Positions 13,131-31,905 of a stretch of DNA of 36,938 bases are shown here, in pieces. Positions within the stretch are counted from its first letter, which is position 1. Each line of letters begins with the position of its first letter. The notes under the pieces were generated by a model, which was not told the origin of the DNA, ran no database searches, and was given only the letters and a program-made list of their open reading frames with translations. Origin of the DNA: Clostridiales bacterium. Lineage in GTDB: Bacteria; Bacillota; Clostridia; Christensenellales; Aristaeellaceae. The position numbers and the translations under genes are program-made. The DNA lies in the NCBI GenBank assembly GCA_012523405.1, contig JAAYIN010000052.1, positions 1 through 36,938 of the forward strand, read 5' to 3'.

Positions 13131-13205
13131 GTTTGTCACTCCTAGTTTCATTTGATACGATTATATCCTTTATCGCTCACAATCACAATGTTCAGCAGTT
13201 TTTAT

Positions 13206-14165
13206 TCACGAAAACCCGTTGAGCTCCTTGACTCTGCAGCATGAAACAAAATGATTAGCCGAAATCTCTTCAAGCTTCATCGGCTGCTTGCACGCGGGGG
13301 TGGCATACAGGCAGCGAGCAGCAAATCTGCATCCGGGCTCCGGATCAATGGGTGATACGATTTCGCCCTTGAGCTCAATGCGCTTATGCGGCGTGTGAAT
13401 ATCCACAGAAGGGATGGCCGAAAGCAAAGCTTTGGTATATGGATGCATCGGAGAGATAAAGAGTTCTTTGGAAGGACAGGTTTCGACCAGCTGTCCAAGA
13501 TACATCACGCAAATATGCGTGGAAATATGACGGACAACCGAAAGATCATGGGTAACGAACATATAGGTCAGCTTGCGTTCCTGCTGCAAATCCATCAGAA
13601 GATTCAGGATTTGCGCTTGGATCGACACGTCCAATGCAGACACAGGTTCATCGCACATCACAAATTTTGGGCTGAGTGCCAGCGCTCGGCCAATACCCAC
13701 GCGCTGCCGTCTGCCGCCATCCAGTTCATGAGGATAGGCATACCACAAGCGCTGCTCGATCCCAACCATATCCATCAGCCGTTCCGTCTCCACATCCAGT
13801 TCCTGCTTGCTAAAGCGCTCGGACAGCAAAAGCGGTTCTCTAATGGTATCGCGCACCGTCATGCGGGGATTGAGCGAGGAGTAGGGGTCCTGAAAAATAA
13901 TCTGCATGTCTTCCCGAAGCGCTGCAAGCTTATGGCTGTTTACATGGGTGACATCTTCGCCCTGGTAAAGGATTTCGCCGCCAGTGCTTTCTAGCAAATG
14001 AATAACCGTGCGGCCAAGCGTTGACTTACCGCAGCCTGATTCGCCTACAACGCCCATCGTGGTTCCTTCTTCAATTTTGAAGCTGACATCATCTACAGCA
14101 TGCACCATACCACGCGAGGTCTGGAAATATTTTTTTAGATTCTTTACCTCAATAAATGATGCCAT
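13206..14165 (-). CDS. Oligopeptide-type ABC transporter ATPase, OppF/DppF-like
   Basis: A 319-residue nucleotide-binding subunit. Walker A is GESGCGKST (41-49), the Q-loop region is [12 protein letters not shown], Walker B is [13 protein letters not shown], and a C-terminal Cys-rich OppF/DppF tail ([16 protein letters not shown]) binds iron-sulphur or zinc in relatives. The signature reads LDGGRRQR (148-155) instead of LSGGQ. It overlaps oppD by 17 bp, so translation is coupled. It should pair with OppD to power import through OppB/OppC. Confidence 0.92.
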
Positions 14166-15156
14166 CTTGCACCTCCTGCTTTTCTAGGCAACAGCAACGA
14201 CACAGGTGCCCAGGGGTGATTTCTTCAATTGCAATTTCCGTCTCCCTGCACTGATCTGTTGCGTGCGGGCAGCGTGGATTGAACTTGCAGCCAACGGGTA
14301 GATTGGTCGGGTCTGGCGGCATGCCCAGAATCGGAGATAAGCGCGCGGCATCATCAGTCATTTTTGGCAGCGAAGCAAATAGCCCCCTCGTATACGGGTG
14401 CAGCGGATGATCGAAGACATCAATCAATGAGCCGTACTCGACGATTTGTCCGGCATACATAACCGCTACATGATCACAGTTTTCCGCCACCACACCAAGG
14501 TCATGCGTAATCAAGACCATCGCTGTATTGGAATCTTTTTGGAGCTTGCGAATCATTTCCAGCACCTGCGCCTGAATCGTTACATCCAGTGCGGTGGTGG
14601 GTTCATCTGCAAGCAGAAGGTCCGGATTGCACGCCAGTGCCATCGCAATGACCACGCGCTGCTGCATGCCGCCCGAAAACTGATGTGGATATTCTCTAGC
14701 TCGATCCGCAGCAATGCCCACCTTTTCCAGCATTGCAATCGCACGCTCCCCCGCTTCTTTTCGTCCGCATTTGTCATGCAATCCGATTACCTCGGCAATC
14801 TGATTTTTGACACGCTTTACAGGGTTTAGCGCCGTCATAGGATCTTGGAAAATCATAGAGATTTTTGTACCTCGGTATTTTCTCATTTCCTTTTGAGGTA
14901 GTGTCAGCAGGTTCTTTCCTTCCAAGAGAACTTCACCGCTGACAATTTTAGCAGGCGGCTCCTGCAAAATACGCATGATTGATTTAGCCGTTGTTGTTTT
15001 TCCAGCGCCGGTTTCTCCGACAAGTCCCAGTGTCTTTCCTTTTTCAAGCGTCAATGAGACACCGTTGACAGCCTGTACAATCTTTCCATCCGACGTATAT
15101 TGAACCACTAGATCGCGAACAGAAAGGAATGTTGAACTTTGATGATTCTTTTCCAT
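14149..15156 (-). CDS. Oligopeptide-type ABC transporter ATPase, OppD/DppD-like
   Basis: A 335-residue ATPase with Walker [10 protein letters not shown], the signature FSGGMQQRV, Walker [13 protein letters not shown], and the Cys-containing C-terminal extension ([14 protein letters not shown]) of the Opp/Dpp group. It starts 16 bp after oppC and overlaps oppF. Unlike OppF here, it keeps a near-canonical signature motif. Confidence 0.93.
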
Positions 15157-15172: not shown

Positions 15173-16057
15173 CTATTTCTTTAGTTTCGGATCCAGCGCA
15201 TCACGCAAAGCATCGCTGAAAAGATTAAAAGCAAGTACGAAGATCATAATGAACAGACCGGGAAACAATGTCAGATGAGGATAGTTCATAATATAATCTT
15301 TACCATTTGTCAGCATTGCGCCCCATTCCGGATAAGGCGGCTGCACGCCAAGCCCAATATAGCTTAAGCTTGCAGCGGCGAGCACTGCTGAGGAGATTGA
15401 ATTGGAGATAGATACGAGCACAGGTGCCATCGCATTGGGCACAACATAGTTCATAATAATGCGAGAACTCTTGCAGTTGATGGATGTAGCCGCCTCGACG
15501 TAGTCCATGCCCCTAACGGTCAGGATGCTAGCACGCATCGTTCGCACCGTACCCGGGATACTGGATACACCCAGTGCGAGCACAGTTGGTATATAGCCAG
15601 AGCCGAGTACTGCCGCTACTACAATTGCCAGCAAAATAGAGGGTAGTGCTTGGAAGATATCCACAACTCGCATGATAACAAGATCGGTCTTTCCGCCAAA
15701 GAACCCTGCGATTGAACCGATGAGCACACCGCCCACCGTGCCCAGCAATGTGGAGAGAATACCGATACCGATTGAATAGCGGCCACCATATAGCAGGCGT
15801 GTCAGAATGTCACGTCCCATTGAGTCACATCCACACGGATGCTCCAGTGAAGGAGTCGCAAAAGCATCTAAGATGCTAATTTTAGTATACGAATAAGGAG
15901 AAATCAGCGGAGCAAAGATCGATAGCAATACCAGCATAGTAATGATGACAATACCAAAAATACAACTTTTTGTCTTCAGCAGCGACTTCATGACAAGCAT
16001 ATTGCTGCTGCTGTGTTTTTCTTTTTTGATTTTTACCTTTACTGTTTCATTCTTCAT
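15173..16057 (-). CDS. Oligopeptide-type ABC transporter permease, OppC/DppC-like
   Basis: A 294-residue permease. The N-terminal helix (CIFGIVIITMLVLLSIFAPL) is followed by ISPYSYTKISILDAFATPSL, the substrate-side loop with HPCGCDSMGRDILTRLLYGG, and the EAA loop DYVEAATSINCKSSRIIMNY. The start MKNETVK at 16057 is chosen because it is where OppC-like sequence begins and it overlaps the oppB stop by 11 bp; a longer frame upstream is an out-of-family extension over oppB. It forms the channel with OppB. Confidence 0.92.
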   Translation of the reverse strand: MKNETVKVKIKKEKHSSSNMLVMKSLLKTKSCIFGIVIITMLVLLSIFAPLISPYSYTKISILDAFATPSLEHPCGCDSMGRDILTRLLYGGRYSIGIGILSTLLGTVGGVLIGSIAGFFGGKTDLVIMRVVDIFQALPSILLAIVVAAVLGSGYIPTVLALGVSSIPGTVRTMRASILTVRGMDYVEAATSINCKSSRIIMNYVVPNAMAPVLVSISNSISSAVLAAASLSYIGLGVQPPYPEWGAMLTNGKDYIMNYPHLTLFPGLFIMIFVLAFNLFSDALRDALDPKLKK

Positions 16058-17006
16058 GTTTTTTACTCGCCTTCTTCCCCTCGTATTGCGCTTTGATGCG
16101 AGGATCAATGAATGCATACAAAAGATCCACGAGCAGCATGACAATGCCGAATACAAAAGCAACAAAGATGACAGAGCCTTGGCAGGCTGTATAATCGCGA
16201 GCATTAATTGCCTTGACCATATATGCCCCAATTCCCGGTATTCCGAATACATTTTCAATGATCAGCGTACCGCCAAGCATTGCACCAAAGCAATTACCAA
16301 CGCCGGTAACAATGGGAATCAATGCATTTGGGAATGCATGACGAATGAGCACATTGAATTCAGATACGCCCTTGGATCGTGCTGTTGTTACATAATCCGC
16401 ACGAATAACCTCTAGCATACTCGAACGTGTCAGACGAACATTGCCCGCTATGCCGGCGGCTGCATTGGCTATGCACGGAAGGATTTGGTACTCGATTCCG
16501 CCCATGCCTTGGGACGGTAACCAGCGTAATTGTACTGCAAATAACATGATCAATATTTCAGCCAGCCAGAACTGGGGCATCGAAACGCCCACAAGCGACA
16601 CCGTCAGCGCAAACTTATCCACCAGCGAATCTTGGTATACAGCAGCAACCATTCCAAGCGGTATGCCGATACCAAATCCAACGATGACCGTGCCAATGGC
16701 AATAATCAGTGTTCTGGGGAAACGTTCCAGCAACGCAGTCGTAACACTGATCCCTTGAATGTAGGAGGTACCGAAGTCAAGCTTTGTTACGATGTTCTTG
16801 ATGTATTGGAACAGCTGAATGATATAAGGTTCATTCAGACCCATGGATTCGCGATAAGCTTCCCGCTGTACGTCTGTGGAAGATGATCCTAAAACAATGG
16901 CCGCAACATCACCGGGCACAAAATACATCAAGGTGAAAATCAAGATTGTAACGCCCAGCAGAACAGGTATCATTAGTAATATTCTCTTGGATATATATCT
17001 GCCCAT
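16047..17006 (-). CDS. Oligopeptide-type ABC transporter permease, OppB/DppB-like
   Basis: A 319-residue permease with six helices. The N-terminus MGRYISKRILLMIPVLLGVT, the PGDVAAI loop, the segment LGLNEPY-like (SMGLNEPYIIQLFQY) and the EAA loop DYVTTARSKGVSEFNVLIRH are all typical. It follows the binding-protein gene with 88 bp between, where a hairpin is located. OppC overlaps its 3' end. Confidence 0.93.
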   Translation of the reverse strand: MGRYISKRILLMIPVLLGVTILIFTLMYFVPGDVAAIVLGSSSTDVQREAYRESMGLNEPYIIQLFQYIKNIVTKLDFGTSYIQGISVTTALLERFPRTLIIAIGTVIVGFGIGIPLGMVAAVYQDSLVDKFALTVSLVGVSMPQFWLAEILIMLFAVQLRWLPSQGMGGIEYQILPCIANAAAGIAGNVRLTRSSMLEVIRADYVTTARSKGVSEFNVLIRHAFPNALIPIVTGVGNCFGAMLGGTLIIENVFGIPGIGAYMVKAINARDYTACQGSVIFVAFVFGIVMLLVDLLYAFIDPRIKAQYEGKKASKKHEE

Positions 17007-17094: not shown

Positions 17095-18675
17095 TTAGTC
17101 ATTCCAAACGTAGGTGCAGCCACCGATCTTGATTTCGCCGCCTTCACGCATATCCAATGCTGTGCAAACTGCACTGTTGGCTACGCAGTAACGCATTCCG
17201 GTATACAGGCCATAACCATATGCCTGATCTTCCAAATATTGTTCGAAAGCCGCAACGGTCTCTTCACTATGTGTGTCAGGTGAAGAACAAGCCATGTATA
17301 GTTCTTGTAGTGTGGGATCATTGATGAGGTTGATGTTTAGACCGGAGCTAAAGCCATTCGCGTTGAATAGGAGCATCCAAGGGAATGTGCAGTAGTCATC
17401 GCAGCCGCGAGCAGCAAATCCGAAATCCCATGCAGTCGAAATACTATATTCAGTATCTTGAAGCGCACCATCAACCACATTCAGGTCAACGATAATGCCA
17501 ATTTCAAGCAGCTGTGCTTGGATAACCTGAGCTACGCGCTCATACTCATCGGAATGCACAACTAGCATCTTCAAATGCTGTGAGGTATCAAAGCCAGACT
17601 CTGCGAGCAATGCTTTTGCCTTGTCCAGATCCTGACCGAAGTAATCGCGCTCGTTCCATGCGTCAATGTAGTCACTGGCGCAATCATTTGCGAAAGCATT
17701 GAGCACTTTACCATAGCCGCTGGTTGCGAACTGCATGATCGTTTCATTATCGATTGCATAGCCGATCGCTTGGCGAAGTGCCAGATTGTTGCATTCGCTG
17801 TCAGCAGAGCAGTTGAACACAACGCTGTGTACCATGGTCGCAGGCTGTGCATCTACGATCCAGCCCTCGGTAGCCTGACCATCAACGTAGAAATCTCCCA
17901 GAACTGCCGGTGTGATCAGCTCAGCCATGTCGATTTCATTTGTTTTCAGAGCTACGGACATCTGAGTGGCATCCATGATAATTTTCATTTCAATGCGGTC
18001 AACATTTTGCTTTGACCACACATAGCGAACGCTCTCATCCGTCTGCCAGTAGTTTTCCGCCTTAACAAGAACCACTTCAGAACCATTCACGAAAGTTTCA
18101 ACCTGATAAGCGGCTGTTGTGATAGGATTGTTTACCATCTTATCAGCACTTGCTTCGTAAGCGGACTGAGAGATGATCGGAACCATGCTAAGCAGCCATT
18201 CCAAGTTGCCAAGACCGTTATCGGTAATCTTCAGGCGCACTGAGTAATCGCCAGTTGCTTCAATGGTGTCCAAAACGAACATCTTAGGATAGTTGCCGGA
18301 TTCCTTCATAGCATATGCAGCCCATACATAGTCTGCTGCAGTGATGTGGTTTCCAGCGGAGTCAGAAATGTAATCGTACATTTCGATGTCATAGGTTACA
18401 TCGTCAACCTGTGTAATGCTCTTGGCGCATACTAGATCCATTGCGTCCCAAGAAGCCCCAAAGGCTACGCGCTGTGCCATGTACTCATAAATAGCCTGAT
18501 ATACATAGGCACGGCCACCGTCCATGGGCCCAAAAGGAGAAATCGACGATACGTCAGCATCAATACCAACGCGCACAACCGTGGTAGCATCCTCTGCTGC
18601 CGCTACGTTGCACAGTGTCATCGAGAATACCATCATGAGTGCCATTACCAGAGAGAGAATCCTTGTGTTTTTCAT
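17095..18675 (-). CDS. Family 5 extracellular solute-binding protein (OppA/DppA-like)
   Basis: The protein has 526 residues. The signal peptide MKNTRILSLVMALMMVFSMT ends in a NVAAA-ED cleavage site; there is no lipobox cysteine. The mature part has the family start (VRVGIDADVSSISPFGPMDG), the DVTYDIEMYD region and the ALRQAIGYAIDNETI motif of family 5 proteins, which bind peptides, nickel or oligosaccharides. ATG 18675 follows AGAGGA at about 9 nt; an upstream in-frame start would not give a signal peptide. It sits behind the esterase/ceramidase-fold pair and ahead of oppBCDF and supplies the substrate for that importer. Confidence 0.92.
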   Translation of the reverse strand: MKNTRILSLVMALMMVFSMTLCNVAAAEDATTVVRVGIDADVSSISPFGPMDGGRAYVYQAIYEYMAQRVAFGASWDAMDLVCAKSITQVDDVTYDIEMYDYISDSAGNHITAADYVWAAYAMKESGNYPKMFVLDTIEATGDYSVRLKITDNGLGNLEWLLSMVPIISQSAYEASADKMVNNPITTAAYQVETFVNGSEVVLVKAENYWQTDESVRYVWSKQNVDRIEMKIIMDATQMSVALKTNEIDMAELITPAVLGDFYVDGQATEGWIVDAQPATMVHSVVFNCSADSECNNLALRQAIGYAIDNETIMQFATSGYGKVLNAFANDCASDYIDAWNERDYFGQDLDKAKALLAESGFDTSQHLKMLVVHSDEYERVAQVIQAQLLEIGIIVDLNVVDGALQDTEYSISTAWDFGFAARGCDDYCTFPWMLLFNANGFSSGLNINLINDPTLQELYMACSSPDTHSEETVAAFEQYLEDQAYGYGLYTGMRYCVANSAVCTALDMREGGEIKIGGCTYVWND

Positions 18676-18887
18676 TTTTTCATGTCCTCTTTTCTGTTTT
18701 TTGAAGATTTTCCTTGTCTTATTTGCTCGGATAATCTCAATTGCTTTATCTGATACTACCATACTTGTGAGGGCTCGTCCATTTAGTAGAATCTAGATTA
18801 TGTGTAATTATTCATGTTCTGCATGGCAACTGTTCAAAATACGCCTTTGGTAATATTTAACATAAACACCTTTTGTTCTTTGGAATA

Positions 18888-20147
18888 CTACTTGTAGAGT
18901 TGCTGCAGCATATTTTGCAATGCGCACAAAATATATTCCTCACCAAGTCCATCCTTAATACGCGTGTTTGTGCCCTCAAAGGTCTTTCTCTCAAAGCCTT
19001 GCTTGTCTGGAATGTAGTCAATCCGTTCTGCAATATGCTCGATAATGATGGTGTTTTTATAGGGAACCAATGCTTTGATTCGCTCCCCAATTTCCATCAC
19101 AATTTCCCCGCCGACCCCTACAATGGCAACGTCATTTAGCATCACCAGTTTTAAGACCAGCTTGACAAATTCCTCATCTGTCGATTCCTCGTTTACCAGC
19201 CGCGGCACTTCAAGCGTCTGATCCACCACGGAAAAACGCAGTGTATCTGCCAGATGATCAACGCTGCCAAGCGTGCGCATAATATCCATGCTATGTAGCT
19301 CGGCAAGATGTTCACATACCGTCCAGCAAGCATACCCCAAGTCATAGGAAAGATCATGAGAGCCATCGTGATAGATTCGCTCCATCTGCGGCATGTACAA
19401 AGGTGCTTGGTTGCCCGCTGCTCCGCTTGTCCAAAGAAATACCGTTTGCTTATCGGCATAACGCTCTTCAAGATAAGCAGTGGTCATTCCCGGCAGATCG
19501 CCTGAAATCATGAATTCCTTTTGAGCTTCGTCCTTGCCAAAAAAGCAGACCGTGCCATGCACAGCGTAATTGGTCACTACGGCAACTTCCTTGCCCTGCA
19601 TATCCACAAAGCTGATGACATCAAGCTCTTTATCCGATGGACCTGCGTAGTTCATGCCGATGTCCCATGTTCCATCCTCATAGAGCAGATCACGGTTTGT
19701 ATTGATATGGCTGCTTCCCTTGGCGAATCCCCAGCGGACAGGCTGTAATAAGGTAACGGCTTGCCGAACACATTCCGTCATTTTCTCAATGACAAAATTT
19801 CCATACTTCGTTACCCATGCCAGCTTCTCAGGGTTATCCCGAATGCTGACATGATCATTTGCAAAGGATGGCGCTTCATGCGTATGCGTCACCGTGAATA
19901 AAACGTTCTGGGGCTGAATATCAAACTGCGCCAGAAGAATCTCTCGCATTTCATCCCCGCGGCTCATATCACCCGAGTCAAACACGATGAGCGCAAAGCG
20001 TCCATCATCATGATCAAGCACCAACGCACGAACAAACAAATCCCGATAAACCTTCGTCAGCTTGATCGGCAAAAAGCTTTCCGCAGGCATCATCTCCGGC
20101 GGGGGCGTAATGCAGGTCTTTGCCGCACCAGCATACAGTTGTTTCAA
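18888..20147 (-). CDS. Neutral/alkaline ceramidase-fold protein, copy 1
   Basis: A 419-residue protein matching the N-terminal domain of neutral ceramidases. Candidate zinc ligands lie in THTHEAP (87-93; H88/H90) and NYAVHGT (193-199; H197), and SGDLPG is at 215-220. The nucleophile hexapeptide of characterised ceramidases (GDVSPN-like) reads GNQAPL (245-250), with Ala instead of Ser. No signal peptide is present, so it should be cytoplasmic, unlike secreted ceramidases. It begins 28 bp after the esterase-fold gene and is followed after 212 bp by the binding protein. True substrates are probably not ceramides; a metal-dependent hydrolase on an imported compound is my best inference. Confidence 0.8.
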   Translation of the reverse strand: MKQLYAGAAKTCITPPPEMMPAESFLPIKLTKVYRDLFVRALVLDHDDGRFALIVFDSGDMSRGDEMREILLAQFDIQPQNVLFTVTHTHEAPSFANDHVSIRDNPEKLAWVTKYGNFVIEKMTECVRQAVTLLQPVRWGFAKGSSHINTNRDLLYEDGTWDIGMNYAGPSDKELDVISFVDMQGKEVAVVTNYAVHGTVCFFGKDEAQKEFMISGDLPGMTTAYLEERYADKQTVFLWTSGAAGNQAPLYMPQMERIYHDGSHDLSYDLGYACWTVCEHLAELHSMDIMRTLGSVDHLADTLRFSVVDQTLEVPRLVNEESTDEEFVKLVLKLVMLNDVAIVGVGGEIVMEIGERIKALVPYKNTIIIEHIAERIDYIPDKQGFERKTFEGTNTRIKDGLGEEYILCALQNMLQQLYK

Positions 20148-20175
20148 CGTATCCCACCCCTTTCTTAGCAGTCAA

Positions 20176-21384
20176 TCACTTCACATCGGTTGGATTCAGC
20201 GGCTCGCGAAACAGCATGGTAGCAAACTCACGCAGACCCATCCGCCAGCTATCCCAGCGAATAAAGCGACCATCATGCAGCACGCGGCGATAACCCGGCA
20301 TAACCCCTTCGATACCCGCCTCACGCATGATTTCAGTGTCCTTGGTGAACAGATCAATATGATCTTCTTGAGGCGTTGCAGAGCAGAAGAAGATTTTATA
20401 GTCCTTCATAAACTGCTGTGGATTCGCCATAACTTTGGGCCAAGGACGCTCATAGGTCGCCTTGAAAGTCGGATGATACATAGTGCTGGTAAAGGAAGCC
20501 ATGTTGCCAAATACATCTGGATGATTGAAACCTATGTCGTTTGTTTGCATGGAGCCCATGGATAAACCGGCAATCGCGCGATTCCATTTGTCCGTTTTCA
20601 CGCGGTAATGACTCTGGATATAGGGAATGCAGCATTTCAGCAGTGAGTTTTCAAAGCAATCATCCACATACTCGGTACCCTTCCATTCATCATAACGAAT
20701 CATGCCGTTGTTCATGACAATGATGAATGGCTCGCATTCTTTTGCTGCGATTAGATTGTCCATGATATAGTTGGCGCGGCCTGTGGATGTCCAGCAAGTT
20801 TCATTTTCCGTTCCGCCATGCTGCAAATAGAGCACAGGATAAGATTCGTTGGTATTCATATACCCCGGCGGTGTATAAACAAGGCAGCGCTCCCACTCGT
20901 TTGTTTCCGTTGACCAATATACCTCGTGACTGATTGCGCCATGCGGTACATCTTTGATATAGGCAAATTCCAAGTCTTGATCCGGTATTTCCAGATAGTT
21001 ATACGGATGTCCGCCCGACCAGAACATCGGCAAATACGGCCAGATGACAAAGGTATCATCAATATAAATTTCAACATTACGCGGGCCTGTTTTGCGCAGG
21101 TCATATGGCAATATGGCTTCAAACACGCCTTCTTCATTCTTTAGGCAATGGATGGTCTCATCACGCCATGGAGCGTAGCCCTCCGGTGTCGGATCGCCAA
21201 ACCATGGGATGATGTGAACCGTATTTGCATTGGGCGCACCGATGCGAATCAAGTAATCGCCATTGGGCTGAAGGATAGCAGCCTCCACCACAGCTTTTTC
21301 GTCACTCCTGGGGGTAACCTTGTCAAAGCTCAGCTCTGTCGCCTGAAAAATCTTATTGTCCCTGATTTTCTTACTGATTTCCAT
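20176..21384 (-). CDS. Esterase-fold (enterochelin/feruloyl-esterase-like) protein, copy 1
   Basis: A 402-residue alpha/beta-hydrolase with an N-terminal immunoglobulin-like (CBM48/E-set) domain (about 30-125). The hydrolase domain starts at DVPHGAISHEVYWS; CLVYTPPGYM, VLYLQHGGTENET and the nucleophile GLSMG (Ser275) follow. The normal catalytic His lies two residues before the Trp that precedes W-R (HxW..WR); here this position is Ile (RFIRWDSWRMG). There is no signal peptide. It is the first gene of its transcript, with the ceramidase-fold gene 28 bp behind. An acyl-sugar esterase or a non-catalytic relative are both possible. Confidence 0.85.
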   Translation of the reverse strand: MEISKKIRDNKIFQATELSFDKVTPRSDEKAVVEAAILQPNGDYLIRIGAPNANTVHIIPWFGDPTPEGYAPWRDETIHCLKNEEGVFEAILPYDLRKTGPRNVEIYIDDTFVIWPYLPMFWSGGHPYNYLEIPDQDLEFAYIKDVPHGAISHEVYWSTETNEWERCLVYTPPGYMNTNESYPVLYLQHGGTENETCWTSTGRANYIMDNLIAAKECEPFIIVMNNGMIRYDEWKGTEYVDDCFENSLLKCCIPYIQSHYRVKTDKWNRAIAGLSMGSMQTNDIGFNHPDVFGNMASFTSTMYHPTFKATYERPWPKVMANPQQFMKDYKIFFCSATPQEDHIDLFTKDTEIMREAGIEGVMPGYRRVLHDGRFIRWDSWRMGLREFATMLFREPLNPTDVK

Positions 21385-21675
21385 CTATTTGTCCTCCTTG
21401 ATCTTTATACCATTTCGTTGTTACTTGAGATTTTTATCGTTTTTTCTTGCCTGCAATGTACATACTGCTGCCATTTCACCCTTTCCGCTCGTATGGACAT
21501 AAACAGAAATACAAACGCGGCACAGCCTCAGCAGTTTATCCATTCATCTCTGATTTGCCAATCCACCATGTGCCAAAAACTATCGAGTTCCTCATGATTG
21601 GAGGTCGATATCAGCATGCATTGGTTTTGCAAATCCGTTCCCCAAATCGCCAAGTTTTTAAATGAATGTGTGATT

Positions 21676-21691
21676 TTTGTAGTTCTACAAA
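21676..21691. promoter_or_regulatory. Palindrome in the esterase-1 leader
   Basis: TTTGTAG-TT-CTACAAA, a 16-bp palindrome, lies about 40 bp downstream of the predicted start of the minus-strand transcript. Its position suits an operator for a repressor such as a LacI or GntR protein. The rest of the 535-bp gap (21385-21919) shows promoters for both flanking genes and no convincing reading frame. Confidence 0.35.
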
Positions 21692-21737
21692 GTATCTGCT
21701 ATTGCTTCTGCGTTCCGTCGAAGTCTTTTCATGTCTG

Positions 21738-21766
21738 ATTATATCATGTCCAATGAAGGCTCTCAA
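21738..21766 (-). promoter_or_regulatory. Promoter of the esterase-1/ceramidase-1 transcript
   Basis: On the minus strand TTGAGA (21761-21766) and TATAAT (21738-21743) are separated by 17 bp, with an extended -10 TG. The implied leader is about 345 nt long. Confidence 0.6.
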
Positions 21767-21874
21767 CGGAGGAAAATCCATTTATTTGTGTGTTTTTTCA
21801 AGGTCGAGTAAATGATGATTGTGTGGATTATTTCTGGGATTTGCCCAATCCCCTTCCATCCGCAAAAGATATCA

Positions 21875-21883
21875 TGTTATAGT
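21875..21883 (+). promoter_or_regulatory. Extended -10 promoter of the Gfo/Idh/MocA gene
   Basis: TGTTATAGT lies 37 bp before the ATG at 21920; no good -35 box is visible. AGGAGG (21907-21912) serves the start codon at 7 nt. Confidence 0.4.
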
Positions 21884-21919
21884 ATTGAGTAATATATACA
21901 AGTTGCAGGAGGACTATTT

Positions 21920-22960
21920 ATGAAGAAACTCAACATCGCATTATGTGGTTGCCGCGGGCATGCTGTTAAGTTTGGTAATCTGGTGAACAGCTATGATGAA
22001 AGCAGAATTGTTGCCGTTTGGGATAACGAACAAACGCTGGGCGAAGCTGCCGCCAATGCACTGAACTGTCTGTTTGAGAATGATTATGACAGGTTACTAG
22101 CGATGCCTGATTTGAATGGTGTCATCATCACTGCAGAAAATGCATTACACCGTGAGCTTGCTGTAAAGGCCGCCGAGGCACACAAACATATTTTCATCGA
22201 AAAACCGCTTTGCACACACAAAGAAGATGCCTTCGCTATACAAAAAGCAGTCCACGAAAACGATGTGCGGTTTTATATGTCCGATCCCTTTGTACGTGCG
22301 CCTGTGATCTATATGAAACGCATGATGGACAGCGGTAGAATCGGTAAAATTACAGCTGTACACATTCACGTATCCAATGATAACGGCGTACCCGGCCGCC
22401 CCGCAGAGCTTCATCCCGATTATAGCTATGAACGAATGGGCGGGGGCGTCATGGCTGACATTGGAGGTCATGCGCTTCACGCACTGCATTACCTGCTGGG
22501 CAAGCCAAATGCTGTCACGTCTGTTTTTTCATCTTTTCACGAGGAAGCCATCAATGCAGGCATCGAAGAAAGCGCCATGATGATCATGCAATATCCTCAT
22601 GGCGTGCTTGCTTCTGTTGAATCCAGCTTTGTCAGCCAATATGAATCCCTAAACATCAATGTATACGGCATGGAAGGTACTATTTGTCTGACTAATTTCG
22701 GCGGCTGTAACGAGCGTTGGGATGTCAAATATAAATTGGGCAATGACCCCTGGACTATTGTACCAGAGGATTACCTGCCTGCCGCCCCTTTGAAGCATAC
22801 GCGCTACTGGGTTAACATGATGGTGCAGGATATCCCAAATGAAAACGTCGGCATTGACGATGCTAGCAACAATGGCATGAGCATCGACAACGCCGTCGAA
22901 TGCGCCGAAATCACCGACGCTATTTATCGTAGTGTAAACCAAGGAACTGTACTACTTTAA
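21920..22960 (+). CDS. Gfo/Idh/MocA family oxidoreductase
   Basis: A 346-residue NAD(P)-dependent dehydrogenase. The Rossmann N-terminus (KKLNIALCGCRGHAVKFGNL) has a modified glycine motif. HKHIFIEKPLC supplies the EKP motif with the catalytic Lys, and GGGVMADIGGHALHALHYLL contains the D...H pair used in sugar oxidation. Family members oxidise or isomerise sugars and cyclitols. It is transcribed towards the second ceramidase-fold gene and overlaps it tail to tail by 9 bp. No terminator separates them. A role in oxidising the sugar released by the neighbouring hydrolase-like proteins is inferred from position. Confidence 0.9.
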   Translation: MKKLNIALCGCRGHAVKFGNLVNSYDESRIVAVWDNEQTLGEAAANALNCLFENDYDRLLAMPDLNGVIITAENALHRELAVKAAEAHKHIFIEKPLCTHKEDAFAIQKAVHENDVRFYMSDPFVRAPVIYMKRMMDSGRIGKITAVHIHVSNDNGVPGRPAELHPDYSYERMGGGVMADIGGHALHALHYLLGKPNAVTSVFSSFHEEAINAGIEESAMMIMQYPHGVLASVESSFVSQYESLNINVYGMEGTICLTNFGGCNERWDVKYKLGNDPWTIVPEDYLPAAPLKHTRYWVNMMVQDIPNENVGIDDASNNGMSIDNAVECAEITDAIYRSVNQGTVLL

Positions 22961-24271
22961 CATTCTATAGAATAATTCCTTTTCGCCCGCCAGAATTGGT
23001 CCTTCACCCTTTCCGGGAACAACTTCGTTAAACGCTTGAAAGGTTTTGTGTTCCACAGAAGCCTGATCCAGCACATAACCCACATGGTTAGCCGTATGGG
23101 TTACAACGATTGTTTTTTGAAAGGGTGATTTTCTTTTGAGTTCACTGCCGATAGCACAGTAAAGCTCTGCGCCCACGCAGACAATGGCAATATCTCCAAG
23201 TTCAATAGCTTCCATCTCCACTGGGACAGGGTTTGCTTCATCGCATATCAGCTCAGGCACAATCGGCGGCAAAGGCATATCCTCAGGCTTTCGCGCACCA
23301 TGTCCGCCCATTCGGTACGGACCAGCCGAATCGGTCGCGCGGCAAACACTCTGCCGTGGAAGCTGAACTGTTGTCTGCGCATGTCTCAGCCTAATAGCTG
23401 TTTGGTATTCTGTGATAGCGTCAAGCCCTCGCACCGCATCCACCGCATGACGTCTCCCGACATATTCCATCTGCAAGTAACCCGCTCCATCGGGATAGGG
23501 CACCTGCGTAGTATATCCATCCGGGTAATCCAGCTGAACACCATGGCTCATGATCGGCGCTTGATCCCCCGCTGCACCAGACGTCCACAAAACAATGCCG
23601 CCATAGCGTTCTTCCAAAAACGCACAGGTGATACCGGGGAAATTGCCCGAGAGTTTCGTTTTTCCATCAACATCACGTTGCAGATAGATACAGGTAGCAT
23701 GCGTGCAGTGATTGAGCACAGCCGCAATCAACTTGTCCTCTTCATCCACCACCTTAATGATGGACAATGTTTGATCGCTGTAACCTGCCTCATTAGGTGC
23801 CTCCACCCAATAACCACCGATTGTTTGATAATCTCGATTCACATTGATCGGACTTTGAACGCTGCCAAATCCAATCTTGGCCGGACGAAGCTCGGCAATA
23901 GCCTGCTTGCAAGCTTCAATGGCGGCTTGCAGTTCAATTTCCTTATAAGCCTCACATCGCGCAAGGATTTCAGGGGGCTGCTCGTGAATGTTTTCATCAC
24001 AGGGTGATGAGTGGTTATGTGTGACCGAAATCACGATTTGCTCGGCTTTATATCCCACTTCATTTGCAATTTTGTCTTTATAATTCGTAATTTTAGGCCA
24101 ATCGCTTAACTCGCAACTGAGAAAAAGCAAACGCTCCTGCTCTGTTTCGATCGCCAATGCTCTGCAAAAACACGATGTATACTGCGCATCGCAAACGCCG
24201 AAATGCGTGGGCATGGGGTACATATCCGCATGCGGATCCAGACTCGATTTGCCAGCTCCTGCCTTGATCAT
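22952..24271 (-). CDS. Neutral/alkaline ceramidase-fold protein, copy 2
   Basis: A 439-residue paralogue of the 18.9-kb protein, clearly diverged. Putative zinc sites are VTHNHSSP (83-90) and NHCTHAT (187-193). SGNFPG (208-213) corresponds to the SGDLPG of copy 1, and GDQAPI (235-240) stands where ceramidases have GDVSPN; the Ser is again Ala. It starts AGAGKSSLDP with no signal peptide, so it is cytoplasmic. It begins 21 bp after esterase-fold copy 2, the same order as the first pair, and overlaps the Gfo/Idh gene by 9 bp at the 3' end. The substrate is unknown. Confidence 0.8.
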   Translation of the reverse strand: MIKAGAGKSSLDPHADMYPMPTHFGVCDAQYTSCFCRALAIETEQERLLFLSCELSDWPKITNYKDKIANEVGYKAEQIVISVTHNHSSPCDENIHEQPPEILARCEAYKEIELQAAIEACKQAIAELRPAKIGFGSVQSPINVNRDYQTIGGYWVEAPNEAGYSDQTLSIIKVVDEEDKLIAAVLNHCTHATCIYLQRDVDGKTKLSGNFPGITCAFLEERYGGIVLWTSGAAGDQAPIMSHGVQLDYPDGYTTQVPYPDGAGYLQMEYVGRRHAVDAVRGLDAITEYQTAIRLRHAQTTVQLPRQSVCRATDSAGPYRMGGHGARKPEDMPLPPIVPELICDEANPVPVEMEAIELGDIAIVCVGAELYCAIGSELKRKSPFQKTIVVTHTANHVGYVLDQASVEHKTFQAFNEVVPGKGEGPILAGEKELFYRMLK

Positions 24272-24292
24272 TTACTCATCTCCTTTGGTTTT

Positions 24293-25468
24293 TCACTTTT
24301 TGAACAGGAGCTTAGCATAGTCGCGCAAGCCCATTCTCCAGCTGTTCCACTTGCTCGTATTTTCCGAATAGACCGTACGATGGCAGCACGGAAGCTGATC
24401 ATAGCCCGCCTGCGCCATCAAGCGATCATCCGCTTCAAAGAATTCAAAGTGATCCTCCTGCTCTGTTGTCGAGCGGAAGTAGACCTTAAAGAGCTTTGAG
24501 AATGCATCGGGTGACACCTGCTTTAAAAATTCACGATATGGGCGCACTACGCCGGGTGCAAGTTGTATATGCTCTTCGTTATGGGTCATGCATGCTGTAA
24601 AAGTACCCACATATCCAAAGCTATCCGAATGTCCCAGTGCGATATCGCAGGTCATATAAGCACCCATCGATAGCCCTGCAATAGCCCGATCCCACTTTTG
24701 CGTTTTTACGCGGTAGTTGGCTTCAATAAAGGGAATGCAGTCCTCAAGCAGCATGGTATCAAATGCTCCGTCGCGCACCATGGATACCTTGCCTTCAGCT
24801 CGCAACATAGAATTAGGCATCACAACAATCATGGGCTCAGCTTCACCAGCTGCAATCAAATTATCCATGATAGCAGAAAGCCTGCCGGCGTATTCCCAGC
24901 TGGTTTCGTTATCTGTTCCGCCGTTGAGAAGGTACAGCACAGGATATTCCGCTGAATTCTTCATGTATTGCGGCGGCGTATAGACCAAGCAGCGCTCCCA
25001 ATTGCCCATAGGCTTCGCCCAGAATAGCTGATGGGTTACTGCACCATGCGGTACATCACGAATGAGAAATGCATCATTTCCTTCATCCGGAATTTCCAGA
25101 TAGTTATGCGGACGATTGTTCGTCCAGAAAATCGGGAGATATGGGTCAAGTACCAATTGGTCATCGTAAAAAGCAAGCACATTCGCAGGGCCGGTAAAGA
25201 AGCGGTCATATGTCAAAACACCGCGGAACTGCCCCTGTCCATCCCCTTGCAGCGCAATGTCACGAACGCGCTTTCCGCTCGTAGCACAGGTGATTTTCAC
25301 AGTTTTCGCATTCTGTGCAAAAATGCAAATCGCAATATCCCCGTTGGCTAAAACCGTCGCGCCAATATCCTCAGGCGCACCGTTTGGCAGTTCTTGTGTA
25401 TACCTATCCACAGTTAGCGGTGTGCTATAAAGCGCTTTGTTGTGTAATCTATCACCATCAAGTAACAT
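24293..25468 (-). CDS. Esterase-fold (enterochelin/feruloyl-esterase-like) protein, copy 2
   Basis: A 391-residue paralogue of the 20.2-kb protein. The N-terminal E-set domain ends near LEIPDEG, then come DVPHGAVTHQLFW, CLVYTPPQYMK, VLYLLNGGTDNETSWEY and the nucleophile GLSMG (Ser257). The C-terminus TSKWNSWRMGLRDY has Ser where the catalytic His of the HxW..WR motif should be, and the HGG segment reads NGG. I chose ATG 25468 because GGAGG is 8 nt upstream; the ATG at 25483 has no such site. It has its own promoter and leads the ceramidase-fold copy 2 gene. Confidence 0.85.
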   Translation of the reverse strand: MLLDGDRLHNKALYSTPLTVDRYTQELPNGAPEDIGATVLANGDIAICIFAQNAKTVKITCATSGKRVRDIALQGDGQGQFRGVLTYDRFFTGPANVLAFYDDQLVLDPYLPIFWTNNRPHNYLEIPDEGNDAFLIRDVPHGAVTHQLFWAKPMGNWERCLVYTPPQYMKNSAEYPVLYLLNGGTDNETSWEYAGRLSAIMDNLIAAGEAEPMIVVMPNSMLRAEGKVSMVRDGAFDTMLLEDCIPFIEANYRVKTQKWDRAIAGLSMGAYMTCDIALGHSDSFGYVGTFTACMTHNEEHIQLAPGVVRPYREFLKQVSPDAFSKLFKVYFRSTTEQEDHFEFFEADDRLMAQAGYDQLPCCHRTVYSENTSKWNSWRMGLRDYAKLLFKK

Positions 25469-25504
25469 ATATTTTCCTCCCATATGATATATTTATATAC
25501 ATTC

Positions 25505-26390: not shown

Positions 26391-27107
26391 ATGAACTATC
26401 ATGACGAGAATTTAAAACTAATTGCGTTGTTTAAACCCTGTCGCGTAACAGATGTACGAGATGGTATGGATTGGATGGGATACCATTCCTTTGGATCACT
26501 GTCACCTGAATATAGGCCGCTAATTCCCGCACATTGTGTTGGCATTGCTCGCACTGCACGCTACATTCCATATGAAGGACCCTCCCCGCTACTTCGTGGT
26601 GATGAGTATACGCAATGGGCATCCGATTATTATCGTGATGTTTGCTCAGTTCGCCACTGGGTTCAGGACGTTAAGCCAGGTGACTTTATTTGCATTGATG
26701 TGAGTGATGTAAATGCAGGACTTCTAGGTTCGAACAACTCCATCCCGCCAATGAAAAAGGGAGCGGTTGGGTACCTGCTTAACGGAGGCGGCATTCGGGA
26801 TACAGATGAAGTTATTTTGCAGAAAATCCCGATTTGGAGCAAATTTATTTCTCAGGGGATGGATCAAGCTCGCCTGCGTTATCTGGAAAAGGATGTGCCC
26901 ATTGCGATTGGCGGTGTTGCAATCTATCCTGGCGATGTTGTTATTGCAGACAATGACGGTGTGATTGTTGTACCCAGAAAGATTGCCTTTGATGTAGCAA
27001 AATACGCATGGCAGGAAATGAATAATGATAAACTCGGGCGACAAGAGCTGTACAAAATGATGGGTTGGGAACTGGACGATACCGTCATTCCCGTAGAACC
27101 AATATAA
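26391..27107 (+). CDS. RraA-family protein (2-keto acid aldolase/decarboxylase-like)
   Basis: A 238-residue protein of the RraA/HMG-aldolase fold, longer than the roughly 160-residue RNase E regulator. The conserved core is present: GLLGSNNSIPPMKKGAVGYL, the active-site pair R136-D137 in NGGGIRDTDE, and PGDVVIADNDGVIVVP near the end. Class II relatives cleave 4-hydroxy-4-methyl-2-oxoglutarate and other 2-keto-4-hydroxy acids with a divalent metal. AGGAGA lies 8 nt before the ATG. It is the first gene of the sugar transporter operon, 45 bp ahead of the binding protein. With the IlvD/Edd enzyme downstream, a retro-aldol step on a 2-keto-3-deoxy sugar acid is likely. Confidence 0.85.
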   Translation: MNYHDENLKLIALFKPCRVTDVRDGMDWMGYHSFGSLSPEYRPLIPAHCVGIARTARYIPYEGPSPLLRGDEYTQWASDYYRDVCSVRHWVQDVKPGDFICIDVSDVNAGLLGSNNSIPPMKKGAVGYLLNGGGIRDTDEVILQKIPIWSKFISQGMDQARLRYLEKDVPIAIGGVAIYPGDVVIADNDGVIVVPRKIAFDVAKYAWQEMNNDKLGRQELYKMMGWELDDTVIPVEPI

Positions 27108-27152
27108 GCACACAGGATAGCGAGTGATCGCAGAAATGAAGGAGGCACTAAA

Positions 27153-28454
27153 ATGAAGAGGATTTTTGCCCTAGCAATGACACTATGTATTTTACTATCA
27201 CTGAACTTGCCAGCAATGGCTAATGCGGAACAAGCAGAGGAAATCACCCTTCGATTTGCATGGTGGGGAGATGCCTCTCGCCACGATGTCTACAACAAAA
27301 TCTGCGATACATTTGAAAGCATGAACCTAGGCGTTACAATCGAACGTGAGCCCAATACGTTCAATGCCTATTTCGAGAAGTTAGCAACACAAGTCGCAAG
27401 TGGTAATGCACCGGATGTGTTCGGCATGCACGCGCGCTTTGCAACTGAGTTTGCCAGCCGTAACGTAATGGAAGACCTGCAACCCTATGTTGATCAAGGG
27501 ATCATTAACTTAACAGATCTAGACCAGCCTGTTATTGACAGCGGTAAGATCAGCAATACGCTGTACATGATTTGCCAAGGTGTCACGCTCAATGAATTCC
27601 TACTAAATGAAGATATGTGCAAGCGGCTAGACGTTGAAGTACCGGATGTACTAGAGGATTGGACGTGGGAAGAATTCGTCGCGACTTGCTATGATTTCCG
27701 CGAAAAAGCACTCGCAGCAGGAGAAGATGTCTACTTTATCGATGAACCTTATCAGTATAATTTCTTCCGTATCTACCTGCTATCATATGGCGAAGAATTA
27801 TTCAATAATGACGGTACGATCGGCTGCACAAAAGAACGCATTACCCAATGGTTTAGCATGTGGCAAAACATGCGCAATGATGATGTGATCCCCGATGCTG
27901 CCAGCGTTACCGAAAATGTTAACGCTACCCTTGAAACCCAAATGTTCACATTAGGGAAATGCGCTGTCACCAATATCCCCGTTAACAAGCTCAACCAGTA
28001 TCAAGCACAGATGACGGATAATCTTCGTCCTTTGCGTTCTCCGCTGGGCAATGACGGAACCCGTGGGGTATATATTGAAGGTGCTCATAACTGCATTTCC
28101 TCAACAATTGATGATGAACATAAGCTTGTTGCCGCTAAGTTCTTGGACTTCTTTACAAACTCAGAGGAATGCCTCAAGGACCTGCTTATTCAGCAGGGTA
28201 CGCCTGCCAATACACAGATGAGCGAGTATGTTCTGCAGTTTATGGATGAAACTCAGATTGAGGCAATGGAATATGTAAAGTATACTCAGCCCCTTGCATC
28301 CATCGGTAATATGTTGCCGGTTGGATATAGCGAAATGAACACCCTTTACTTGGGCATCCGCGAAGCATCTGACTTTGCTGCGATGACACCCGAGGAAGCA
28401 GCGCAGGCTTATTTAGATGGCATTCAGGAGATTCTTGATAAGAATTCGAAATAA
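27153..28454 (+). CDS. Family 1 extracellular sugar-binding protein
   Basis: The 433-residue protein has a signal peptide (MKRIFALAMTLCILLSLNLP, cleavage after MANA) and no lipobox. The mature N-terminus ITLRFAWWGDASRHDVYNKI, the GNAPDVFGMHARFATEFASR segment and the C-terminal helix EEAAQAYLDGIQEILDK are typical of family 1 carbohydrate-binding proteins. AGGAGG precedes the ATG. The two permeases follow after a 96-bp gap containing a hairpin. The sugar is unknown; the context suggests a sugar acid or a sugar that is oxidised to one. Confidence 0.93.
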   Translation: MKRIFALAMTLCILLSLNLPAMANAEQAEEITLRFAWWGDASRHDVYNKICDTFESMNLGVTIEREPNTFNAYFEKLATQVASGNAPDVFGMHARFATEFASRNVMEDLQPYVDQGIINLTDLDQPVIDSGKISNTLYMICQGVTLNEFLLNEDMCKRLDVEVPDVLEDWTWEEFVATCYDFREKALAAGEDVYFIDEPYQYNFFRIYLLSYGEELFNNDGTIGCTKERITQWFSMWQNMRNDDVIPDAASVTENVNATLETQMFTLGKCAVTNIPVNKLNQYQAQMTDNLRPLRSPLGNDGTRGVYIEGAHNCISSTIDDEHKLVAAKFLDFFTNSEECLKDLLIQQGTPANTQMSEYVLQFMDETQIEAMEYVKYTQPLASIGNMLPVGYSEMNTLYLGIREASDFAAMTPEEAAQAYLDGIQEILDKNSK

Positions 28455-28488
28455 GCGTTCTACTTCTTAAATGCTCAGTATTATTCCT

Positions 28489-28526
28489 GGCTTGAAACCA
28501 GCACTCGGCTACGCTGGTTTCAAGCC
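28489..28526 (+). other. Intercistronic hairpin after the sugar-binding-protein gene
   Basis: GGCTTGAAACCAGC (28489-28502) pairs perfectly with 28513-28526 around a 10-nt loop, with no U tract behind. Its placement between binding protein and permease is the classical one for an mRNA-stabilising element that raises binding protein over permease. The other importer has an equivalent hairpin at 17024-17061. Confidence 0.65.
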
Positions 28527-28550
28527 GACGAAGGAAGGAAGTGCATAAAT

Positions 28551-29450
28551 ATGGCAAATACAATACGCAACACGACAAGGCAGCGGAAAGAAACCATGGC
28601 AGGTTATTTGTTTTTAGCCCCTTGGTTGGCAGGCTTTTTGCTGCTTACCATCATACCCATGTTCGCTTCTTTATACTTTTCGTTTACGCGGTATGATATG
28701 TTAACATCAGCCACTTGGATTGGTTTGGATAATTATGTTCAGATGTTCAAAGATCAGAAATTCCTTAAAAGTTTAGAAGTCACATTTACCTATGTATTTC
28801 TTTCTGTGCCATTGCAACTGACTTTTGCACTTTTCATTGCCAATACGCTAAAGAAGAATAGACGCGGGGTACGCGTCTACCGTGCCGTATACTATTTGCC
28901 ATCTTTGTTTGGCGGCAGTGTCGCTATCTCTATATTATGGCGTCAGATTTTCAATAAAACCGGTCTGTTCAATCAATTCCTTGCTGTTTTTGGCATCAAA
29001 GGCATCAACTGGATTTCCACCCCCGATACCGCCCTTTACACGCTGATTGTACTAGCGGTATGGCAGTTCGGTTCATCCATGGTGATCTTTCTGTCTGCTC
29101 TAAAGCAAATTCCTGCCGATTACTATGAGGCGGCTTCGATTGACGGTGCCAGTAAACCCAGACAATTCTTTCAAATCACAATACCGCTTCTTACCCCTAT
29201 GGTGTTTTTCAACATCGTCATGCAAGTCATCAATGCGTTCCAAGCATTCACACCCGCATACATCATCTCAAATGGGACAGGCTCTCCTCTGAATTCCACA
29301 CTCTTTTACTCGCTCTATCTATATAACAAAGCATTTAGTCAATTCGAGATGGGGTACGCTTCCGCGCTGGCATGGGTACTGTTGGTGATTATTACTTGCA
29401 TTACCGGATTGCTTTTTGGAAGTGCGAAAAAATGGGTTTATTATGATTAA
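28551..29450 (+). CDS. Sugar ABC transporter permease (MalF/UgpA-like)
   Basis: The protein has 299 residues and six membrane helices, starting GYLFLAPWLAGFLLLTIIPM. The EAA loop is YYEAASIDGASKPRQFFQIT followed by IPLLTP. A purine-rich AAGGAAGG ribosome site lies about 12 nt before the ATG at 28551. The partner permease starts 14 bp after its stop. No ATPase gene is in this operon, so a shared MsmX/MsmK-type ATPase elsewhere must energise it. Confidence 0.93.
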   Translation: MANTIRNTTRQRKETMAGYLFLAPWLAGFLLLTIIPMFASLYFSFTRYDMLTSATWIGLDNYVQMFKDQKFLKSLEVTFTYVFLSVPLQLTFALFIANTLKKNRRGVRVYRAVYYLPSLFGGSVAISILWRQIFNKTGLFNQFLAVFGIKGINWISTPDTALYTLIVLAVWQFGSSMVIFLSALKQIPADYYEAASIDGASKPRQFFQITIPLLTPMVFFNIVMQVINAFQAFTPAYIISNGTGSPLNSTLFYSLYLYNKAFSQFEMGYASALAWVLLVIITCITGLLFGSAKKWVYYD

Positions 29451-29464
29451 AGGAGGATGGAGGC

Positions 29465-30310
29465 ATGGTTGTTTCTAATGCAAAATCAAAGTCTTTTCTA
29501 TTTCATGCATTGATCATCCTTTTTGCAATTGCGATGATTTATCCACTGATTTGGATGATATGCGCATCTTCGAAAATAGGCCCGGAAATCTTTCAAAGCA
29601 AGTCGCTGCTGCCGAAACAATTAACACTGGAAAACTATCGGACAGGCTGGAAAGGGATCTCTGGTTATTCGTTTGGTTCCTTCTTTAACAATTCATTCCA
29701 ACTGGTCATTTTTTCTATCCTTGGCAATTTGCTATCTTGCGCAATGGCTGCATATGCTTTTGCCAAATTGAATTTCAAAGGACGGAATTTGCTTTTTACA
29801 CTGATGATGGGAACGCTCATGCTGCCAAAGCATGTACGCTTAATTCCTCAATACATCATCTTTAATAAGCTAGGGTGGGTTAATACCTATCTTCCAATGA
29901 TCATACCAAAATTCTTAGCAATGGATGGCTTCTTTGTTTTCCTCATGACACAGTATATGCGTGGTTTACCAAAGGAGCTTGATGAGGCGGCAACCATTGA
30001 TGGGTGCGGTTATCTCAATCACTATCTACGAATCATTATTCCTATGTCAGTACCTGCGCTGATCTCAACAATGATATTCACTTTCCTATGGACATGGAAT
30101 GATTTTTTCATGCAGATGATCTATATCAGTCGCTTGGAACAGTACACCGTTGCATTGGCTTTGCGTATGTTTATTGATTCCACAGGAAGCAACGCATGGG
30201 GAGCTTTATTTGCAATGTCCACACTATCGCTGATCCCGTTATTTTTGATGTTCATCATCTTTCAAAGATATCTTGTGGACGGCATTACCGCTGGCGGCAT
30301 CAAGGGATAG
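29465..30310 (+). CDS. Sugar ABC transporter permease (MalG/UgpE-like)
   Basis: A 281-residue permease. The N-terminal helix leads into YPLIWMICASSKIGPEIFQS, and the EAA loop reads ELDEAATIDGCGYLNHYLRI followed by IIPMSVPAL. It ends in the typical FQRYLVDGITAGGIKG tail. GGAGG precedes the ATG. It forms the membrane channel with the preceding permease, and the PPC-domain gene starts 26 bp downstream. Confidence 0.93.
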   Translation: MVVSNAKSKSFLFHALIILFAIAMIYPLIWMICASSKIGPEIFQSKSLLPKQLTLENYRTGWKGISGYSFGSFFNNSFQLVIFSILGNLLSCAMAAYAFAKLNFKGRNLLFTLMMGTLMLPKHVRLIPQYIIFNKLGWVNTYLPMIIPKFLAMDGFFVFLMTQYMRGLPKELDEAATIDGCGYLNHYLRIIIPMSVPALISTMIFTFLWTWNDFFMQMIYISRLEQYTVALALRMFIDSTGSNAWGALFAMSTLSLIPLFLMFIIFQRYLVDGITAGGIKG

Positions 30311-30336
30311 AAATCAATGATATGGAGGTATTCACA

Positions 30337-30765: not shown

Positions 30766-30883
30766 TGTTTGGCCACCTGCTTATCACAGGAAAAACAAGA
30801 AAAACGACGAATACTTAACATTATGAAGTGATGCGTTATTCATCGCACAAGTTCATAGCAATTGGCAGTCGGGAGGTGAAAAC

Positions 30884-31813: not shown

Positions 31814-31905
31814 CGGGAAAATTGACGAAATATGCCACCATTACAATTGATTGCTTTGTATAAAATAATCACTGGCAACCAAACGAAGTAGAAAGCAGTG
31901 AAACA

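Follow-up and report, generated by a model that had tools for sequence, protein, structure and literature searches.

Organization of the locus

The stretch of DNA analyzed here, referred to below as the window, comprises 36,938 nucleotides of a Clostridiales bacterium (GCA_012523405.1, JAAYIN010000052.1) and corresponds to contig C22 in a draft genome of 3.56 Mb. Among its genes are two pairs on the minus strand, each consisting of a gene encoding an esterase-fold protein (E) followed by a gene encoding a neutral-ceramidase-fold protein (C). The first pair comprises E1 (20176..21384), a putatively cytosolic CBM48-CE1 protein in which Ser275 is present and the catalytic histidine is replaced (FIRW), and C1 (18888..20147), a predicted zinc hydrolase with H88, H197, E348, Y378, and R152 present. 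The second comprises E2 (24293..25468), a putatively cytosolic, feruloyl-esterase-like CBM48-CE1 protein with the GLSMG nucleophile present and the catalytic histidine replaced (TSKW), and C2 (22952..24271), a predicted zinc hydrolase consisting of the N-terminal domain only, with intact zinc ligands. These assignments are based on Pfam matches and alignments and, for E1 and C1, also on structural models. The E and C genes are separated by 28 bp in pair 1 and 21 bp in pair 2, in agreement with a preliminary description of this locus. Between the pairs lies a plus-strand gene encoding a Gfo/Idh/MocA oxidoreductase (21920..22960; Pfam), which is divergent from E1, as described earlier, and convergent with C2, which it overlaps by 9 bp.

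The E2 reading frame opens at 25483, and the ATG at 25468 is preceded by a GGAGG site. C1 starts with TTG, preceded by AGAAAGGGGTGG, and C2 with ATG, preceded by AAAGGAG. Each pair had been credited with its own strong promoter. The two highest-scoring promoter-like sites detected in the scanned region indeed lie on the minus strand, one near E2 (25534-25505) and the other approximately 350 bp upstream of E1 (21766-21738); both score 11/12 and carry TG ahead of the second hexamer. However, the promoters are plausible and not proven, because the region as a whole contains 21 such sites compared to 19.8 (standard deviation 4.3) in shuffled sequences, i.e., no excess.

The twelve genes from E1 through a MATE transporter share one orientation, and no terminator-like site was detected in the 125 bp between C1 and the next reading frame. 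The latter encodes the SBP_bac_5 solute-binding protein (SBP5) of an importer (17095..18762), followed on the same minus strand by OppB-type (16047..17006) and OppC-type (15173..16258) permeases, OppD-type (14149..15156) and OppF-type (13206..14165) ATPases, a response-regulator/AraC-type regulator (11547..13151), two proteins of 222 and 250 amino acids with no Pfam match (10836..11504 and 9686..10438), an MFS transporter (8418..9635), and the MATE transporter (6996..8366), all others being assigned by Pfam. The coordinates of SBP5 and OppC are those of the listed open reading frames; judging from the sequence, SBP5 probably starts internally, at MKNTRIL, and the OppC frame, which as listed overlaps OppB, probably also has an internal start.

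Ceramidase-fold proteins C1 and C2

C1 and C2 share 29-31% identity. C1 matches PF04734 with 40.9 bits, above the cut-off of 32.1, and C2 with 25.5 bits, under this cut-off (E 6e-6). A C1 model built from 32 sequences reached a pLDDT of 94.3, and a structure search with it returned four neutral-ceramidase chains and no other match at E <= 0.001. All four zinc ligands (His, His, Glu, Tyr) are present in both C1 and C2, with reference to the residues that we take to bind zinc in 2zws, whose match to C1 derives partly from the alignment. In an alignment of 94 sequences (C1, C2, and 92 homologs of 380-560 amino acids), H88, R152, and Y378 are invariant (94/94). The position of E348 is occupied by Glu in 90 sequences, Asp in three, and Lys in one (locus L146), and that of H197 by His in 83, Gln in six, and Lys in five. 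All 11 sequences without H197 are also changed at H90 and form one tree group (L052:9981-11258, L065, L066, L070, L094:795-2135, L109, L071:3532-4824, L115, L116, L122, and L124); an EstA-type gene is found near several of them. In L103 and L129, C appears extended at its N-terminus; these extensions gave no Pfam match and were set aside as probably long reading frames in GC-rich DNA.

With neutral ceramidase (P. aeruginosa 2zws, human 4wgk; PF04734), the C proteins thus have in common the fold of the N-terminal domain, the zinc ligands (two His, Glu, Tyr), and a conserved Arg. This resemblance would fit a system acting on lipids or N-acyl amides, in which C1 and C2 would be true ceramidase-like amidases cleaving imported N-acylated sphingoid-like or acyl-amino compounds and E would be an accessory lipase. 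We consider such a system very unlikely. With 419 and 439 amino acids compared to 646 in neutral ceramidase, C1 and C2 lack the C-terminal domain; the serine of the ceramidase amidase motif is alanine in both (AAGNQAP and AAGDQAP); neither has a signal-like N-terminus; and some C relatives are encoded near tannases and glycosidases. A further difference from neutral ceramidase is that C1 and C2 adjoin an Opp importer and esterase-like genes.

Esterase-like proteins E1 and E2

E1 and E2 (43-45% identity) match PF00756 with 64.1 and 64.8 bits, respectively, and both combine the two-domain CBM48-CE1 fold with the GLSMG nucleophile. The E1 model is of moderate quality (nine sequences, pLDDT 70.9); its top matches were feruloyl and acetylxylan esterases of the CBM48-CE1 type, ahead of XynZ-type and other feruloyl esterases, and Fes-type enterobactin esterases ranked lower. 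From the known CBM48-CE1 feruloyl and acetylxylan esterases (6ne9, 6mot, 6rzo, 7b5v), which have the same architecture and nucleophile, E1 and E2 differ in being cytosolic, in lacking the catalytic histidine, and in carrying clade-specific residues.

In an alignment of 43 sequences (E1, E2, and 41 homologs), the catalytic-histidine column, located before the last helix, contains His in 38. The five exceptions, read from alignments only, are E1 (Ile), E2, L184, and L185 (Ser), and L150 (Thr), and they form one clade (support 0.978). The absence of the histidine from E1 and E2 had gone unmentioned in the preliminary description. All five have GLSMG, and Arg or Lys adjoins the lost histidine position. 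Moreover, D283, R313, T337, and D341 are common to the five and occur in none of the 37 other rows of a reduced set, from which the distant rows L127 and L148 were dropped and which includes the 6ne9 reference. The invariance of these residues suggests an active site that has been remodelled, not decayed. E1 and E2 might instead be non-catalytic and serve to load substrate onto C, as partners with a carbohydrate-binding or regulatory role; C would then be the sole hydrolase of each pair. Such a role would agree with the loss of the histidine in a whole clade (5/43) and with a second clade, formed by the first E copies of three loci (L064:6325-7563, L147:9163-10386, and L186:8844-9980; 3/43), which has lost the nucleophile Ser instead (GIGLG or GVGLG) and retains the histidine. 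The conserved GLSMG elbow and the four clade-specific residues argue against it, and we regard it as unlikely. Rather improbable, on the same sequence features, is a bolder possibility, namely that E1, E2, and their relatives constitute a new CE1-derived enzyme or enzyme half. Together with C, they would then form a two-component cytosolic deacylase, in which E would bind the sugar and take or present the acyl group, and the zinc-bound water of C would complete the cleavage. The histidine-less esterases offer a test case for a serine hydrolase that changes its chemistry or turns into a partner protein.

Two further observations concern E proteins and their partners. Frames of 690-788 amino acids with two E-type matches each, at L200:8896-11226 and among the matches in genomes G1072, G1177, and G1304, are possible double-E fusions. 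At the third C locus of the window's own genome, C lacks one zinc ligand (HFRQEY), whereas the accompanying EstA-type protein looks intact by eye; the window shows the reverse, an intact C and an E without the histidine. A rule of one intact and one dead partner, suggested by these two cases, was rejected as not general because both partners look intact in L067, L095, L098, L101, L102, L113, and L121.

Age of the two pairs

C1 has a Hungatella hathewayi protein as its sister (support 0.97) within a six-member clade (support 1.0), and C2 belongs to a seven-member clade (support 1.0) with Solobacterium and Hungatella proteins. E2 is sister to the L150 protein of a Solobacterium genome (support 0.998), in which the relatives of E2 (L150) and C2 (L075) are located on separate contigs; the branching order of E1, L184, and L185 below E2/L150 is weakly supported (0.47-0.49). 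In the Solobacterium locus L074, one strand carries a C1-clade gene, OppB, OppC, OppD, OppF, a gene of the metallo-beta-lactamase (MBL) fold, and a C2-clade gene. Since the C and E trees place the copies with relatives from other genera, the pairs represent old lineages. The preliminary description had seen here an old duplication of a two-gene module; its strong and old divergence is borne out, but according to the trees the two-gene unit was not duplicated locally, in situ, and the pairs are two old paralogous lineages. An unusual expansion is seen in the loci L077, L084, and L085 of Solobacterium metagenome-assembled genomes, where a single stretch carries an array of five C genes together with five or six genes of the MBL fold.

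Genomic neighborhoods of C and E homologs

A search of genome contigs with C1, C2, and two relatives yielded 59 C loci, which by their record titles are 30 from Bacillota and 29 others (the phylum of L127 is unstated); several originate from the same metagenome-assembled genome, and some contigs are short. E is directly adjacent to C in none of the 30 Bacillota loci other than the window and in six of the 29 others (L095, L098, L101, L102, L113, and L121), three of which (L098, L101, and L102) are near-identical. The strict pair is therefore rare, and of the conserved cytoplasmic pair envisaged earlier, the cytoplasmic location holds, but not the pair as a conserved Bacillota unit. Among the Bacillota loci, nine have two or more Opp genes and 11 have at least one, six have an esterase-probe gene within 200 bp of C, 12 an MBL gene, two a Gfo/Idh gene, and 21 two or more C genes; the corresponding numbers for the non-Bacillota loci are none for Opp, nine for the esterase probes, one for MBL, and two for multiple C genes. 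MBL coverage is 10.1% within 2 kb of C compared to 1.2% beyond 4 kb. For the esterase probes, coverage in the same loci falls from 11.7% within 2 kb of C to 3.6% beyond 4 kb; these probes were drawn partly from earlier C loci, and the tannase and GDSL families fall outside of the probe set.

The 29 E loci comprise nine regions from C-bearing genomes (10 of 15 places) and 20 of 42 places in the family of genome G563. C accompanies E in a same-strand run in three of them (L146, L147, and L189), and OppBCDF is found in six (L146, L147, L149, L184, L185, and L189), as well as at the E locus L064. The window's own genome encodes five OppB-like genes, two of them beside C genes, and its third C gene is arranged in the order C-SBP5-OppBCDF-EstA-MBL. 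The proposed tie to ATP-binding cassette (ABC) importers is thus supported by this third locus and by the Opp genes at both C and E loci.

Among 15 C-bearing genomes, six have an E match at E <= 1e-10, four of them strong, and in 12 further C-bearing genomes four have a match at E <= 0.001, only G563 strongly; within the family of G563, 31 of 299 genomes contain E at E <= 1e-30. Among taxonomic neighbors of the window, C is rare: at E <= 1e-10 it was detected in two of 297 genomes of the order and 26 of 391 of the class, and a C2 query at the same threshold found four of 398 genomes of the phylum, the window's own genome being included in each count. A genome-contig search with the E1/E2 alignment, using only two very specific peptide patterns, gave no match, nor did a viral-contig search with A1.

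Two one-strand runs illustrate the gene company: SBP5-OppBCDF-(202-aa unknown)-C-BDFAE-MBL-E-Gfo/Idh-GH3-MATE in L147 and SBP5-OppBCDF-(201-aa unknown)-C-BDFAE-Gfo/Idh-GH3-lactonase in L047, the lactonase being assigned by clustering with L092 and L120. Pfam annotation of selected neighbors identified GH3, a family that includes beta-xylosidases, in L046, L047, L104, and L147, a seven-bladed lactonase in L092, L120, and L184, an aldose epimerase in L092 and L184, and MATE in L052, L071, L120, and L147. In L047, L051, L071, L126, L147, and L185, a relative of the window's Gfo/Idh protein (24-47% identity) is encoded as an immediate or close neighbor of C or E. Relatives of the window's MFS transporter (52-54% identity) directly adjoin C or E in L071 and L184, and in L185 the MFS gene is two genes away from E. 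Across 38 selected loci, the window included, homologs of the AraC-type regulator occur in seven and of MATE in 12, the latter being a count without control for a common family. This recurrence of the downstream transporters and regulator had not been mentioned in the preliminary description. The recurring set is a loose toolkit, in which C and/or E are accompanied by SBP5-OppBCDF, other serine esterases, MBL-fold, Gfo/Idh, GH3, lactonase, MATE, and MFS proteins, and C is paired with various serine hydrolases, not with one fixed partner.

Cellular location of C and E proteins

Export was assessed by a crude test, a mean hydropathy of at least 1.8 over 12 residues upstream of the conserved start, with loci from the window's class or the family of G563 taken as Bacillota. 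By this test none of C1, C2, E1, and E2 has a signal-like hydrophobic N-terminus, as had been noted for all four. An export-like N-terminus was found in none of 64 C homologs from Bacillota compared to 27 of 30 from others, and the three misses (L065, L066, and L100) resemble Sec or Tat signals slightly under the threshold. For E, the numbers are one of 35 in Bacillota, the distant row L148, and six of eight in others. This pattern fits acylated plant compounds being handled outside the cytosol in other lineages and inside it, after Opp import, in Bacillota. Exported C in other phyla versus cytosolic C with an importer in Bacillota is a clear and testable rule.

Substrate clues and proposed function

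Many genomes from gut, rumen, and soil encode ceramidase-fold proteins, whose family name points to lipids. The company of C (feruloyl-type and other esterases, some tannases and glycosidases, and importers in Bacillota) points instead to the breakdown of plant acyl-glycosides. In L098, the order is GDSL lipase, tannase, carboxylesterase, C, E, and tannase. In L095, a TonB/SusD pair and an alpha/beta-hydrolase are accompanied by two E genes, a GH13-type gene, C, and additional esterases; in L104, C occurs with GH106 (rhamnosidase), SusD, and GH3 and with two genes to which the carboxylesterase probe matched. The Agrobacterium C gene lies approximately 5 kb from a subtype B tannase, and the Caulobacter C gene approximately 4 kb from a DUF6351 protein, tannase-like according to its Pfam description. 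C genes of A. vitis and Pantoea share stretches with genes annotated in aromatic metabolism. Plasmid-borne C genes of Pantoea (L066) and Agrobacterium tumefaciens (L067) stand directly beside an EstA-type hydrolase, and the annotation shows no such gene directly beside the Enterococcus C genes (L070). On a Klebsiella grimontii plasmid (L065), a Tn3-type transposase and a recombinase separate C from the EstA-type gene, unlike the adjacent order in Pantoea. EstA-type esterases (PF18435) resemble the E proteins as alpha/beta-hydrolases with an additional N-terminal domain (Ig-like) and recur as neighbors of C homologs; they differ in being another partner than that in the window and in having catalytic residues that are intact by eye.

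Because relatives are found near tannases and sugar-cutting enzymes, the gene set of the window most likely dismantles acylated plant compounds inside the cell. More specifically, from sequence comparisons we give roughly an even chance to an import-and-dismantle system for small acylated plant glycosides, most likely phenolic esters of the galloyl or hydroxycinnamoyl type. The SBP5-OppBCDF importer would deliver the intact acylated compound to the cytosol, where the zinc-bound water of C1 and C2 would cleave an acyl bond of the ester or amide type. With the acylated sugar bound, E1 and E2 may attack a second acyl group by means of their remodelled active site; alternatively, they may hold the substrate. 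Gfo/Idh could oxidize the freed sugar, and the MATE and MFS pumps might export unused product. Having two C-E lineages would allow either two acyl positions or two related substrates to be covered.

Several points weigh against this proposal. The run in the window contains no GH3, tannase, lactonase, or MBL gene. Opp-type importers take many ligands, and the solved solute-binding proteins nearest to that of the window include binders of peptide/nickel, AgaA, and binders of chitin oligosaccharides. Opp genes are absent, at the threshold used and on some short contigs, from 19 of the 30 Bacillota C loci, and E is absent from nine of the 15 C-bearing genomes at E <= 1e-10. The origin of part of the esterase probes in C loci favors their enrichment near C, the Pfam annotation of neighbors covers selected reading frames only, and MATE, MFS, and Gfo/Idh are common families whose recurrence was counted without a control. 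Because the catalytic histidine is absent, calling E1 and E2 esterases is uncertain; the C homolog L146:5199-6563, which shares a run with E and OppBCDF, carries Lys in place of the Glu that binds zinc; and literature searches found no described enzyme of the C1/C2 clade.

The closest described system that we found is the Xua system of Ruminiclostridium cellulolyticum (PMC11127375), which, in the part of that account available to us, likewise combines an ABC importer, cytosolic esterases deacylating the imported compounds, and two-component control. By analogy, E1/E2 and C1/C2 could strip feruloyl, coumaroyl, or acetyl groups from imported xylo-oligosaccharides of hemicellulose. The similarity of E to CBM48-CE1 xylan feruloyl and acetylxylan esterases, the GH3 genes near C or E, and the precedent of a feruloyl esterase that is cytosolic and accompanied by an ABC importer (PMC11127375) are in favor of such trimming. 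We nevertheless judge it unlikely. A Xua-type operon comprises an importer, cytosolic esterases, and cytosolic xylan-acting glycosidases, and no glycosidase was found among the window proteins scanned; selected neighbors elsewhere gave only GH3, GH106, and GH13-type proteins and no GH43, GH51, GH8, or GH39 as in Xua. In the available part of the Xua account (PMC11127375), the importer is of another type, XuaH falls into a different CE1 branch (A85-esteraseD-FGH) and has the triad Ser127, His247, and Asp218, several glycosyl hydrolases are present, and the gene list contains no ceramidase-fold counterpart of C, the function of XuaI being given as unknown. For the import-and-dismantle system proposed here, the literature searched (open-licence PubMed Central papers only) contained no description of the pathway or of the gene combination, in line with the earlier remark that the system was not a recognized one.

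Other genes of the window

A plus-strand block (26391..33627; Pfam) encodes an RraA-like aldolase, an SBP_bac_1 importer with two permeases, a PCC protein, an AraC regulator, and an IlvD/EDD dehydratase. Judging from position alone, it is possibly a downstream sugar-acid block that could use the oxidized sugar. A SIR2 domain protein (window 475-1395), a Y-family polymerase (IMS; window 4859-6385), and a DUF6020 protein (window 34095-35894) are apparently unrelated to the system.

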